NCBI GenBank assembly: GCA_017992455.1
Contig: JAGOOP010000010.1
Span: forward strand, 1-55,742
Length of the DNA stretch: 55,742 nt
DNA from: Candidatus Omnitrophota bacterium
GTDB taxonomy: Bacteria > Omnitrophota > Gorgyraeia > Gygaellales > Profunditerraquicolaceae
Reading direction: 5' to 3'
Part shown: one piece after another, positions 9,381-16,467 of the stretch
Layout: the number at the start of each line of letters is the position of its first letter
How positions within the stretch are numbered: the first letter of the stretch is position 1
Notes under the pieces: model-generated
What the model was told of the DNA's origin: nothing
Seen by the model: the letters and a program-made list of their open reading frames with translations, nothing else
Database searches by the model: none
Program-made: the position numbers and the translations under genes

Positions 9381-10679
9381 TTAGCGGAACTTCGGGCGTC
9401 GGTGAGGCCGCGATGATTGCCCCGAAGGCCTGCTGCCGAATCCGCGGTTACCATGCGGCCGCGATGCACCCGACCGGTTTCGGCCCTTATACCCTGGCTG
9501 CTTCGGCACAGAGAATTCGGAGAACTGCTCCGGGGGGAACTCAGGATGCTTGGCCACCGGCAATGTCGCGCGGATAAGTTTCTCGATGTCTTTGACGTCG
9601 GACTTCTGGTCCGGGGTCGCGATCGAGATCGCATGGCCTTTCATGCCCGCCCGTCCGGTGCGGCCGATGCGATGAACGTAATTGCCCGCGTCTTCCGGCA
9701 GGTCATAATTGATGACAAGCTCGATACCGGTGACATCGATACCGCGCGACGCTATATCGGTCGCGACAAGCACGCGGTACGATCCCCGCTTGAACCCTTC
9801 GAGCGCTTCGCGGCGCTGGTTCAAAGACCGGTTCGAATGGATCTCCGCTGCGCGGTATCCCATCTGCTGAATGGCATGGGTGACCTTCCGCGCTCCGATC
9901 TTGGTGCGCGTGAACAACAGGATCGACCCGTGGTATTGCGCCAGTATCCTGCCGAGCAATTTCGCTTTTGCCTCCCGCTTGACGATGTACAGTTCCTGCG
10001 TCACGGTCTCGGCCGCCGTACCCTGCGGAGCGATCTCGACGCACACGGGCAGTTTCATGTGTTTTGCGGCCATCTGCATGATCTCTTTGGGCATGGTAGC
10101 GGAAAACAGCATGGTCTGCCTGTTCTTCGGTATGAACCGCAGTATTTTATCGATCTGCGGGGCGAATCCCATATCGAGCATCCTGTCCGCCTCATCGAGG
10201 ACAAGCATGCACACTTCGTCAGGCATGAAATTCCACTGCGATATATGGTCGATGAGACGGCCGGGCGTCGCGATGACGATCCGGGGGCTCCTGCGCAGGG
10301 CGGCGGTCTGGTCGAACATAGGCGCTCCGCCGATCAAACAGGCGGTCTTCATGCCGAACGGCACCGCGATGCCACGGAACGCCTCTTCGATCTGAATGGC
10401 AAGCTCGCGGGTCGGCGCAAGCACAAGCCCGGACCCCTGCTTCTGCGCCAGCTGCTGGACCATCGGAATGGCGAATGCATGCGTTTTCCCCGTGCCGGTC
10501 TGGGCAATGCCGATAACATCCTTGCCCTGGATGGCAGGCGGAATGGCCTTTTGCTGGATCGGCGTGGGAACTTTGAATTTGATGCGCTCGAGCGTTTCCA
10601 GTATCTTCGGCGCTATGCCCAGGCCGAAAAAGCTCTGGGGCTGCGGTGTCACTGACTGCGGATGTCCTGTGCTGTTCAC
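9381..10679 (-). CDS. rhlE: DEAD-box ATP-dependent RNA helicase, RhlE type
   Basis: The 432-residue protein carries all helicase motifs in order: Q motif P-T-P-I-Q-Q near 38-43, motif I A-Q-T-G-T-G-K-T near 59-66, D-E-A-D, S-A-T, and H-R-I-G-R-T-G-R-A-G near residue 335-344. The last 50 residues are a basic Arg/Gly/Ser tail for RNA binding. It unwinds structured RNA, commonly in ribosome assembly and cold adaptation. The start is GTG at 10679, seven bases after AGGAGA. The gene has a long (about 195 base) leader with a perfect promoter and a structured element also found before the cold-shock gene, so cold or RNA-structure dependent control is likely. Confidence 0.95.
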   Translation of the reverse strand: MNSTGHPQSVTPQPQSFFGLGIAPKILETLERIKFKVPTPIQQKAIPPAIQGKDVIGIAQTGTGKTHAFAIPMVQQLAQKQGSGLVLAPTRELAIQIEEAFRGIAVPFGMKTACLIGGAPMFDQTAALRRSPRIVIATPGRLIDHISQWNFMPDEVCMLVLDEADRMLDMGFAPQIDKILRFIPKNRQTMLFSATMPKEIMQMAAKHMKLPVCVEIAPQGTAAETVTQELYIVKREAKAKLLGRILAQYHGSILLFTRTKIGARKVTHAIQQMGYRAAEIHSNRSLNQRREALEGFKRGSYRVLVATDIASRGIDVTGIELVINYDLPEDAGNYVHRIGRTGRAGMKGHAISIATPDQKSDVKDIEKLIRATLPVAKHPEFPPEQFSEFSVPKQPGYKGRNRSGASRPHGNRGFGSRPSGQSSRPHRRPKFR

Positions 10680-10696
10680 TGTGTATTCTCCTAACT

Positions 10697-10790
10697 ATGT
10701 GCCCTCCGGCACATGGCTGGCGCTGACGTGGTATTGCGCCACCATGTGCCCTCCGGCACATGGCTGGCGCTGACGTGGTATTGCGCCACC
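10697..10790 (-). repeat. Two tandem 47-bp repeats in the helicase leader
   Basis: Two identical 47-base units (10697-10743 and 10744-10790) lie head to tail in the 5' untranslated region. Each contains a near-perfect palindrome ATGTGCC...GGCACAT and a second GGCGC/GCGCC hairpin, so the RNA forms two copies of a double hairpin. A degenerate third palindrome, TGTTCC/GGAACA, follows at about 10793-10807. The unit ends just before the Shine-Dalgarno sequence. Confidence 0.9.
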
Positions 10791-10806
10791 ATGTTCCTTC
10801 TGGAAC

Positions 10807-10860
10807 AAAAAACCGTAAAGGTTAGCCATCTGTCCTTTACGGTCATCTGATTACTAATCT
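10807..10860 (-). promoter_or_regulatory. Structured leader element (hairpin + U-tract) of the helicase mRNA, shared with the cold-shock gene
   Basis: On the minus strand AGATTAG and TCA precede a 10-bp stem ACCGTAAAGG/CCTTTACGGT (10843-10834 and 10821-10812), with a 12-base loop containing AGATGGCTAA, then six T. By itself this is an intrinsic terminator placed within the leader, about 30 bases after the start of transcription. The cold-shock gene leader at 15604-15664 has the same order of blocks, including AGATTAG, AGATG-CTA in the loop and the T-tract. This points to a common attenuator or RNA switch. Confidence 0.75.
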
Positions 10861-10883
10861 TCTTCTCTTTATACTACCCGATG

Positions 10884-10911
10884 ATTATACCATCGATCCT
10901 GCATTTGTCAA
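10884..10911 (-). promoter_or_regulatory. Consensus sigma-70 promoter of the DEAD-box helicase
   Basis: TTGACA (10911-10906), 16-base spacer, TATAAT (10889-10884): both boxes are perfect. Transcription would start near 10877. It begins seven bases after the cytochrome stop codon. Confidence 0.92.
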
Positions 10912-10917
10912 CATATA

Positions 10918-12141
10918 TTAATGCTTGAACGGGCGCTGCACATCCCGGCCGTGGCAGACAGAGCACTTGCGCAGCGTCCCGGGGCTTGACTGCATATCCT
11001 TGAACTTGATCTGATCGTTCTCCTGACTGCTCGGCGCAATGGCATGAGCGCTGTCATGGCAGACCGCGCAATACACGCCCGTCTTTGAGCGCGATTGATT
11101 ATACAGCGGTTTATCAAGGGCGTATCCCTGGCCGTGGCAGGCGACATTGTCGCACCGCGGCTCGACCTTCCACGGCTCCAGGTTCCTGGCGACGTTGGAT
11201 ATGGCGCCGTGGCATGTCGTGCAATTCAACTTATAGTTCACGGACATTGTGCCGCGCAAAAACTGGGTCCGGCTGCCGGGGTGGCAATGATAACATCCCT
11301 GCGTATCCGGCGTGATCCCGGTCAGGGACTGGTGGCGCCTGTGGACCGCATTCGACAGACTCGGTATGCCCTGTTGTCCTTTGCGGCCAAGGGCGTTGGA
11401 CGCGTGGCAGGAAACGCACAGCACCGGCCTGCTGTGCATCAACGGGACCTGATACTTGTCCGGGTTCAGTTTATCATGCAAAGACAGGATATTCGTCTGC
11501 GGCTTGCCGGTGGGCTTGATGCCATGGCGCTCGGTCGCCATGCCCGCGTCCCCGTGGCACGTGCCGCAGTTCATTTCGTTCGATACGGAAGCGACAACGT
11601 TCGCGCGGCACAGCTCGACCCCGGTCTTCTCGTCTTTCACGACAATGGAAGCTAACTGGTACGGATGGCGTTCCCACAATGCCCGGTCGATATCGGCGGC
11701 AGAGCTGTCGCGGTATTCGGTCAGCGGGATCCCCTCTGCAGTAAAATATCCGTTCACCTGGTCCATCCGGCCCGACAGCCCTTTGCCCGTAAGCCCGGTG
11801 TTGACCGCAACATCCACGCCGAACAATTGCCTGACATATTTCCAGAAATTCGTCTTATCCCGCCTGGTATCCTTGCCTGCTGAATACGTATTCTCTCTGA
11901 AGCTGTATTCGACGATAACGCCTTTGGTGACGACCTGCGGAGGCTCTCCGACCTTGAGGACCTGCGCATACAGGGTATTATGCGGCGGCATGATCGCCAT
12001 ATCCTGAAAATCGCTCGAATAAAAATGAACCCCCGCTTTGCTCCAGCCGAATACGACATACCGCGGCTGTTCCCGGACATCTGCGGCAACAGCATTCGCG
12101 CAAACCATGAAGATCAGCATGCCCAGACAAAGCAGTTTCAT
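10918..12141 (-). CDS. Secreted multiheme (about seven-heme) c-type cytochrome
   Basis: The 407-residue protein begins with a signal peptide (about 1-19, ending A-V-A-A-D). It holds seven heme-attachment motifs: C-G-T-C-H, C-V-S-C-H, C-Y-H-C-H, C-T-T-C-H, a C-x4-C-H version (C-D-N-V-A-C-H), C-A-V-C-H and C-S-V-C-H. The first about 180 residues have no heme and form a separate domain. The hemes would be attached in the periplasm by a cytochrome c maturation system not seen here. The role is probably extracytoplasmic electron transfer. It is the last gene of trkH-trkA-PAS protein-cytochrome, 16 bases after the PAS gene, with a good AAAGGA site. Confidence 0.9.
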   Translation of the reverse strand: MKLLCLGMLIFMVCANAVAADVREQPRYVVFGWSKAGVHFYSSDFQDMAIMPPHNTLYAQVLKVGEPPQVVTKGVIVEYSFRENTYSAGKDTRRDKTNFWKYVRQLFGVDVAVNTGLTGKGLSGRMDQVNGYFTAEGIPLTEYRDSSAADIDRALWERHPYQLASIVVKDEKTGVELCRANVVASVSNEMNCGTCHGDAGMATERHGIKPTGKPQTNILSLHDKLNPDKYQVPLMHSRPVLCVSCHASNALGRKGQQGIPSLSNAVHRRHQSLTGITPDTQGCYHCHPGSRTQFLRGTMSVNYKLNCTTCHGAISNVARNLEPWKVEPRCDNVACHGQGYALDKPLYNQSRSKTGVYCAVCHDSAHAIAPSSQENDQIKFKDMQSSPGTLRKCSVCHGRDVQRPFKH

Positions 12142-15360: not shown

Positions 15361-15561
15361 TTAGAGCTTTACGACTTTCGAAGCCTGTTCGCCCTTAGGA
15401 CCCTGAACTATTTCCAGTTCAACATCCTGGCCTTCGGCAAGCGTCTTATATCCCTCACCCTGAATCACGCTATGATGTACGAATACATCATTACCGTTTT
15501 CAGGAGTAATAAAACCGTAGCCTTTTTCGTTCGAGAACCACTTCACTTTTCCCTTAACCAT
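15361..15561 (-). CDS. Cold-shock domain protein (CspA family)
   Basis: A 66-residue single-stranded nucleic-acid chaperone. It shows RNP1 K-G-Y-G-F-I-T at about 17-23 and RNP2 V-F-V-H-H at about 29-33, the standard OB-fold motifs, and has the usual length. It would bind mRNA and prevent structure formation, mainly at low temperature. The ATG follows a perfect AAGGAGG site. The gene is monocistronic: own promoter, a long structured leader and a strong terminator. The leader shares a hairpin element with that of the DEAD-box helicase, its usual functional partner in cold RNA metabolism. Confidence 0.97.
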
Positions 15562-15591
15562 TGCTCACTACCTCCTTCTTCTTGAATTTTA

Positions 15592-15671
15592 GCGAATAAA
15601 GCCGTCAACAAAAAAACCGAAAGGCTAGACATCTTAAGCTTTTCGGCTGTTGACTTCTAATCTTTATTCAC
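15592..15671 (-). promoter_or_regulatory. Structured 5' leader of the cold-shock mRNA
   Basis: On the minus strand three successive pairings can form around one loop: GTGAATAAAG with CTTTATTCGC (15671-15662 / 15601-15592), GTCAACA with TGTTGAC (15654-15648 / 15610-15604) and CCGAAA with TTTCGG. The innermost hairpin followed by seven T also resembles an intrinsic terminator, so two alternative states are possible. The loop carries AGATG-CTA, shared with the helicase leader at 10807-10860. The Shine-Dalgarno lies about 15 bases after the outer stem. A temperature- or Csp-dependent switch is likely by analogy with cspA leaders. Confidence 0.75.
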
Positions 15672-15682
15672 TACTGTCACCA

Positions 15683-15710
15683 AGTATACCACCGCAACTT
15701 ATTTTGTCAA
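15683..15710 (-). promoter_or_regulatory. Sigma-70 promoter of the cold-shock gene
   Basis: TTGACA (15710-15705), 16-base spacer, TATACT (15688-15683). The start would be near 15676. Spacer length and the GTGG before the -10 match the helicase promoter at 10884-10911. Confidence 0.88.
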
Positions 15711-15724
15711 CAATTATTTTTAAA

Positions 15725-15789
15725 ATCTTAGGGACGGTTCTCAAATAAATCTTAGGGACGGTTCTCAAAGAGAACCGTCCCTAAGATTT
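15725..15789 (-). repeat. GGGACGGTTCTC repeat: one half-copy plus a 20-bp perfect palindrome
   Basis: The unit AATCTTAGGGACGGTTCTC occurs at about 15725-15742 and again at 15747-15766. The second copy is followed by a three-base loop and its exact inverse up to 15789, giving a 20-bp stem. The same core occurs twice before the ECF sigma operon at 24987-25036. The palindrome overlaps the last codons and stop of the upstream gene. It resembles repetitive extragenic palindromes; no transposase is nearby. Confidence 0.85.
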
Positions 15790-16467
15790 ACCTAAGATTT
15801 TTTCCAGCTCCGAACCGGGGAACAGCCGGGCGGCCTCGTCTGCGACCGCCTGCGCGTCGGCGCTGCGCTCGCTGCTGACATACGCATGGTACAACGGGAT
15901 ATAGACCTCGGCGGCAACGCGCTCGTCGACGATCGGCGCCAGGCATCGTTTGAGCCTGTTATACCGCTCGATGGCGCTGCGATGATCCCTCGCCGCGCTG
16001 CATGTCAGCGCCTGCATATATTCGACGACACAGCCGTACGGCATGTAAAAAACGCCGGCAAGCCCCTCTTGTCCCAGTTCCCGTTCCAATATGGAATACG
16101 TCTCCGGTTCGAGCCTGCCGTCCGGATACCGCTCCAGCGTCCGGTCCATCATCATGATCATCTGCCGGGCAGTGTCCATGTCGCGCGGCGGCACCAGAGC
16201 GGCTCCCATGAATTCTATAACGCTGTACACGAACCTGCTGTCGTCCGCGTATACGCTCCGGGGATGATCATCGGCAAACCGCATGAACTCCTGCCGCGCT
16301 TCCTGCACCGCATTGACCCGACGCTCACCCTGCTCCATCTGGCCTGCCCGCAAGAGATCGCCCAGCCGCGCGGCGTATTCCTGCCGGTCTGAAAGAGCCT
16401 CGGCTGCCGCGGCAGCGAAACATACAAGGGAACACAGGACGCCGAAAACGCAATTTCTGCCGAACAC
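15781..16467 (-). CDS. Secreted helical-repeat (TPR-like) protein of unknown function
   Basis: The 228-residue protein has a signal peptide (about 1-23, ending A-A-A-A-A-E). The rest is helical with tetratricopeptide-like pairs, for example A-V-Q-E-A-R-Q-E-F-M-R-F-A-D-D-H-P and the C-terminal A-D-A-Q-A-V-A-D-E-A-A-R-L-F-P. I do not recognise a named family. The start is GTG after GAGGAGATC. The final residues L-G-K-S and the stop codon lie inside the GGGACGGTTCTC palindrome, so the original 3' end may have been replaced by repeat insertion. It follows a small membrane protein by seven bases and is probably co-transcribed with it. Confidence 0.7.
   Translation of the reverse strand: MFGRNCVFGVLCSLVCFAAAAAEALSDRQEYAARLGDLLRAGQMEQGERRVNAVQEARQEFMRFADDHPRSVYADDSRFVYSVIEFMGAALVPPRDMDTARQMIMMMDRTLERYPDGRLEPETYSILERELGQEGLAGVFYMPYGCVVEYMQALTCSAARDHRSAIERYNRLKRCLAPIVDERVAAEVYIPLYHAYVSSERSADAQAVADEAARLFPGSELEKILGKS

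Follow-up and report, generated by a model that had tools for sequence, protein, structure and literature searches.

RNA-based control of the cold-shock response has been described chiefly in a small number of model bacteria, as thermoswitches that act on the translation of individual csp genes. The window analysed here (the whole stretch of 55,742 nucleotides from a Candidatus Omnitrophota genome) contains a cold-shock gene (csp) and an rhlE-type DEAD-box RNA helicase gene, and an earlier note had proposed that the two share an attenuator-like leader. Do both genes carry the same regulatory RNA, how would it act, and which other genes does it precede? Comparison of the leaders with those of relatives indicates that the element is probably a cis-acting, default-off transcription attenuator shared by cold-shock genes of Omnitrophota.

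Both leaders lie on the minus strand and comprise a strong promoter, an AGATTAG motif and an intrinsic-terminator hairpin, P2 (rhlE, 10877-10804; csp, 15676-15559). The order and spacing of elements first described for the two (TCA, AGATG..CTA loop, T-tract) are accurate when read on this strand. The rhlE promoter, TTGACA-16-TATAAT, matches 12/12 consensus positions and has a predicted +1 at about 10877. It is followed by a 9-bp P2 hairpin, in which CCGTAAAGG (10842-10834) and CCTTTACGG (10821-10813) enclose the loop ACAGATGGCTAA, and then by TTTTTTGTT. P2 of the csp leader pairs CCGAAAAGC with GCCTTTCGG around the loop TTAAGATGTCTA and is followed by the T-tract TTTTTTTGTT. The two stem sequences are unlike, each still pairing, and the loop is common to both. 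In each leader an intrinsic terminator stands between promoter and coding region, which is the arrangement of an attenuator. The window leaders (53-118 nt stretches) are more stable than shuffled sequences (z -3.1 to -4.0). Their features are as follows:

9381..10679, minus strand: rhlE-type DEAD-box RNA helicase gene, GTG start (Pfam DEAD and Helicase_C)
10804..10812, minus strand: rhlE T-tract TTTTTTGTT (sequence)
10813..10842, minus strand: P2 terminator hairpin of rhlE, CCGTAAAGG..CCTTTACGG (fold; stem covaries in 76 relatives)
10849..10859, minus strand: small hairpin P1 of the rhlE leader, GATT-AGT-AATC (sequence conserved, no covariation)
10860..10854, minus strand: rhlE AGATTAG (sequence)
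10854..10862, minus strand: helix A upstream strand of rhlE, GAAGAUUAG, containing AGATTAG (base-paired to 10826-10817 in the best fold lacking the terminator; covaries in the family)
10884..10911, minus strand: rhlE sigma-70-type promoter TTGACA-16-TATAAT (consensus match; relatives alike)
15361..15561, minus strand: csp, cold-shock domain protein, 66 aa (Pfam CSD, 1.3e-27)
15559..15575, minus strand: csp Shine-Dalgarno GGAGG, TAGTGAGCA, AUG (sequence)
15590..15601, minus strand: csp mid element CTTTATTCGCTA (P0 partner; in relatives also partner of the ribosome site and AUG)
15608..15616, minus strand: csp T-tract TTTTTTTGT (sequence)
15617..15647, minus strand: P2 terminator hairpin of csp, GCCGAAAAGC..GCCTTTCGG (fold; covariation)
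15657..15663, minus strand: csp AGATTAG, helix A upstream strand (RNA ending with the 3' arm folds best in the helix A form)
15662..15674, minus strand: P0 5' strand GTAGTGAATAAAG at the csp transcript start (pairs with 15601-15590 in the minimum-energy fold; covaries in the family)
15683..15710, minus strand: csp sigma-70-type promoter TTGACA-16-TATACT (sequence)

A 47-bp tandem duplication (98% identical; 10694-10787) lies between the rhlE attenuator and the GTG start; it is missing from a sister genome (G001) and gives a very stable fold. Directly upstream of the csp promoter is a palindrome (GAGAACCGTCCCTA.., 15723-15799), a REP-like dispersed repeat with about 95 copies in the same genome (<=3 mismatches), many of them as facing pairs. 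Rfam miRNA-family matches over 15737-15799 had low E-values, fell below gathering and were discarded as an artefact of this dispersed palindrome.

We searched the rhlE-type hairpin pattern in 84,980 genomes and obtained matches on 21 contigs, of which 20 are titled Omnitrophota, Omnitrophica or Velamenicoccus; confinement of the element to Omnitrophota refers to this pattern search only. The matches include the complete genome of Ca. Velamenicoccus archaeovorus, in which the element has three strong copies. We also built a covariance model (R1) from 12 rhlE leaders, with no csp leaders in training. R1 matched 47 of 59 relatives' genomes and recovered unseen csp leaders, including the window's own (E 0.0037), which bears out the proposal of a common attenuator-like leader. 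Among 71 matches at E<=0.01, three ran off contig ends and one was an antisense reading of a palindrome. The remaining 67 are readable in sense: 60 have csp, a second cold-shock-domain gene or an rhlE operon downstream, and seven precede nitronate-monooxygenase-like (NMO-like; four), acyltransferase (one) or small zinc-protein (two) genes. Two more R1 matches (L121 and L133) lie upstream of operons with RRM proteins. Downstream genes were named via Pfam or similarity. At the sensitivity of this search, the window's own genome has just two copies of the element.

A second covariance model (R2) was made from 76 aligned matches and describes P2 only. R2 matched 67 of 145 genomes drawn across Omnitrophota at E<=0.001, other classes among them; its E-values at the window's two sites (1.7e-10 and 2.5e-10) are for sequences in its training set. 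Outside the window's order, 40 matches were retrieved for inspection, whose only training overlap is the Velamenicoccus element (L090, same site as L216). Of these, 32 precede csp, four rhlE, two radical-SAM genes and one a fatty-acid desaturase gene, and one is at a contig end; csp or rhlE is downstream in 36 of the 39 that are readable. The promoter scores at least 9 of 12 in 107 of 116 related elements, and 89 of these have the 16-nt spacer. R2 gave no match in a 3-kb E. coli cspA region, and rnr, infA/B and pnp were not among the genes seen downstream of the model matches. As far as these comparisons go, the shared leader element is wider than first noted, with a competing helix, a likely translational toggle in csp and more genes.

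The rhlE operons often include a 45-60-aa Cys/His ORF before rhlE; a further cold-shock-domain gene or an acyltransferase gene is occasionally found there. In many Omnitrophota this Cys/His ORF (MKKVKTSxKGRxCKxPxCKHILSIYNHExYCHVHL) separates rhlE from the attenuator (L036, L038, L040, L042, L043, L044, L050, L146 and L150); the one copy tested had no Pfam match. The window's genome also has a second csp (L002, G000:C4:72404-72598) with a divergent leader and a different terminator-like hairpin (CCGTAAAGC..GCTTTACGG). Leaders of this kind are also present in relatives (L028, L030, L167, L172 and L184) and perhaps represent a second class of csp attenuator.

The P2 stem covaries strongly. On the 76-row alignment, which had been fitted to the structure, 96.7% of cells are paired, seven of ten pairs show double-sided changes (67 cells) and no shuffle out of 500 attains the observed value in any of five measures. 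A swap test on unaligned arms of representatives agrees (z -11). The earlier claim of a selected RNA structure with compensated stem changes thus holds, and the covariance-model search of relatives that it had called for found further matches upstream of csp and rhlE, with stems that covary.

How could transcription pass such a terminator? We propose that RNA polymerase starts about 30 nt upstream of P2 and that by default P2 would form and most transcripts would end there. A strand upstream of P2 could prevent this by pairing across the junction of loop and 3' arm: P2 would then lose a strand, and readthrough would follow. The candidate is AAAG.UUAG (or AAGG.UUAG). Its complement, CUAA.CUUU (or CUAACCUU), covers the last part of the P2 loop and the uppermost bases of the 3' arm; we refer to this pairing as helix A.

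To examine helix A, we compared the duplex energies of native strand pairs with those of pairs whose partner came from another sequence, a design that lessens, but does not remove, the effect of relatedness. The pairing exceeds swapped combinations in all 116 elements (z -6.4), in 61 representatives that differ from one another at 12 or more of 36 letters (z -4.6, 0 of 20000 permutations), in the 40 outside-order elements (z -2.35, 244 of 20000) and in the combined representatives (z -4.85). It is not significant on the 22 dissimilar outside-order representatives alone (z -1.3). A control strand, the 5' half of the loop, gave about 0 (z -0.2). In several elements the sequence is replaced and the pairing kept: GGUGAGU:AUUCACC (L141), GAAUU:AAUUC (L161 and L163), GUGAGUU:AACUCAC (L249), AGGCGAGU:ACUCGCCU (L187) and ACAUUAGA:UCUAGUGU (L031). 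With the terminator base forbidden, the best fold has helix A in 118 of 155 elements (76%); the share is 26% when the upstream DNA is shuffled and 56% when it is swapped. These results describe an alternative helix that would exclude the terminator and that is kept by covariation.

A tentative alternative, which we consider possible but doubtful, is that the upstream strand and the loop form an H-type pseudoknot that leaves the P2 stem intact and either tunes termination or creates a protein or ligand site. Helix A ends beside the P2 3' arm; it reaches only the top of this arm, and a loop-only test that leaves out the invariant arm bases gives z -2.2, so a pseudoknot compatible with P2 is conceivable. 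In L170 and L183, AUCAUC:GAUGAU is set off from the arm by UUUU and is compatible with P2, and both AGAUUAG..GUC and the AGAUG..CUAA loop are strongly conserved in sequence. However, including the 3' arm strengthens the covariation relative to a loop-only comparison (z -4.6 versus -2.2), which indicates that arm bases contribute to the helix A signal. Complements of the arm's top 4-mer are also enriched in the upstream strand (56/116 versus 20/114 and 22/116). We infer that helix A acts as an antiterminator in the cell.

The small hairpin P1 (GATT:AATC) is conserved in sequence, shows no covariation (z ~0) and was for this reason rejected as an anti-antiterminator. Conservation of this sequence in the absence of covariation makes it plausible that a protein contacts AGAUUAG.

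If helix A is an antiterminator, temperature alone might move the equilibrium between it and the terminator, as in an RNA thermometer. The genes are of cold-shock type, and the terminator of the window's rhlE leader is ahead by 2.9 kcal/mol at 37 C and by 1.4 at 5 C, in line with this reading. When the window's csp RNA is folded only as far as the 3' arm, its minimum-energy structure is itself the helix A form. Across the family, however, the terminator has a mean calculated advantage of about 4 kcal/mol; cold widens this lead in 73% of 155 elements and narrows it in just 27%, and the ribosome site changes little, with predicted AUG access in csp leaders almost constant with temperature. Since equilibrium folding shows no general cold shift to readthrough, a simple thermometer is not supported; we rejected it for the family and regard it as unlikely. 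The folding calculations describe equilibrium, and kinetic effects are outside their reach. Within the attenuator model, cold could instead tip the balance to readthrough by slowing folding or transcription, or by an effect of Csp or helicase on the emerging RNA.

Leaders of csp contain a further pairing strand. A mid element, typically CCAUUAUUUACUAUAAU, sits between the terminator and the ribosome site and has two pairing partners that suit it equally: GUAGUAAAUAAGG at the very start of the transcript (helix P0) and GGUAGUAAAUAAUG, which comprises the ribosome site and start codon. The swap test for P0, which was limited to the predicted transcript (z=0.1 with promoter bases included), gave z -7.3 for 47 representatives and -3.0 outside the order; the corresponding values for the pairing of mid element and ribosome site are -3.8 and -3.9. 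Pairing is kept in 98.7% of cells in the P0 columns, where exchanges of U-A for C-G and of A-U for G-C occur, and in 92.1% of cells in the columns of the ribosome-site helix. Relatives thus have mutually exclusive long-range helices, one of which hides the ribosome site, and in most of them the ribosome-site helix wins at equilibrium at all temperatures. The arrangement is weak in the window's own csp, where P0 is the stable form and the mid element matches the ribosome site only in part.

This third strand of csp leaders is likely a translational toggle. In the readthrough RNA, a mid element (CCAUUAUUUACUAU) paired with the transcript's 5' end would leave the ribosome site free, and one paired with the ribosome site and AUG would close it. 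P0 can form first in transcription, and P0 that is kinetically trapped in the cold might permit translation. In a longer-leader type of csp paralogue (L014, L153, L154, L160, L162 and L166), GATTTCTA..TTTACTA is the partner of the transcript 5' end, AGTAAAAGTTTAGAAGTC, and the ribosome site and AUG have a partner of their own, TCATTGTTTGCC.

Covariation of csp strands 3' of the terminator with the 5' end and the ribosome site indicates control in cis. The leader RNA of about 70 nt might otherwise be a trans-acting small RNA, with readthrough being constitutive. The strong promoter near the terminator and the conserved 5' sequence would suit such a role, but the element stands almost solely before cold-shock-type genes and in the sense direction, and we consider a trans-acting product very unlikely. 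An ordinary terminator of the upstream gene, for which a same-strand ORF (10918-12141) before rhlE could speak, or a chance likeness has a negligible probability and was rejected, as a consensus promoter separates that ORF from the hairpin and the element recurs before the same gene types, in varied neighbourhoods, in dozens of genomes.

The occurrence of one element before csp, DEAD-box helicase and membrane-lipid genes suggests that a shared RNA attenuator may define a cold-shock regulon, which the element-bearing genes would form. In its broadest version, to which we give even chances, a single leader class (terminator, antiterminator and csp toggle) would jointly control Csp, the RhlE helicase, RRM proteins and membrane-lipid enzymes (acyltransferase, desaturase and NMO-like) throughout the phylum, with Csp or the helicase probably as feedback sensor. 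The element is found throughout a largely uncultured, little-studied phylum and is absent from the public RNA-family library, and it provides a search model for cold-response genes in genomes without experiments.

Neither the window nor ten related loci have an Rfam match at gathering. Our literature search, which left subscription papers mostly outside, found no publication on such an element in Omnitrophota or on Omnitrophica riboswitches. The E. coli cspA thermoregulator (RF01766) resembles the element as a cis leader RNA of a cold-shock gene in which alternative long-range pairings set access to the ribosome site. RF01766 is not known to have an internal intrinsic terminator or to be common to helicase, desaturase or acyltransferase genes. 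The window's csp scored 40.2 bits against this family, below the gathering threshold of 78. We rejected an identity with RF01766: the coding part carries the match, the leader part aligns poorly and the ten related loci have no match to it.

The trp, T-box and riboswitch platforms share with the element a 5'-leader intrinsic terminator opposed by an alternative helix. Unlike in those leaders, no leader peptide, tRNA or ligand site was recognised here, and the genes are of cold-shock type; in the riboswitch comparison no Rfam family matched, and the conserved AGAUUAG segment is short. The thermoswitches of Listeria cspA and of S. aureus cspB and cspC, described as translational (review PMC8155936), undergo a conformational switch in the cold that controls translation, as the csp leaders of Omnitrophota might. 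The Omnitrophota element differs in adding a terminator and a competing helix and in preceding many different genes. The 5' UTRs of B. subtilis cspB and cspC contain cold shock boxes, in which point mutations raise cspC expression (PMC8307031). These are likewise conserved stretches of csp leaders, compared here by description only, and the available portions of that source describe no terminator or shared helicase leader with them.

Cold-shock proteins themselves are known to act on terminators. E. coli CspA/C/E and CspD (PMC11648934, PMC9765468) and B. subtilis CspB/CspD (PMC8307031) alter readthrough of intrinsic terminators, and those of B. subtilis mostly promote termination (PMC8307031). 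As far as the available portions of these sources extend, the terminators concerned belong to other genes, and a dedicated shared cold-shock leader is not described. By analogy, Csp is a plausible trans factor for the Omnitrophota element, which offers a concrete system for the old question of whether Csp proteins antiterminate their own regulon.
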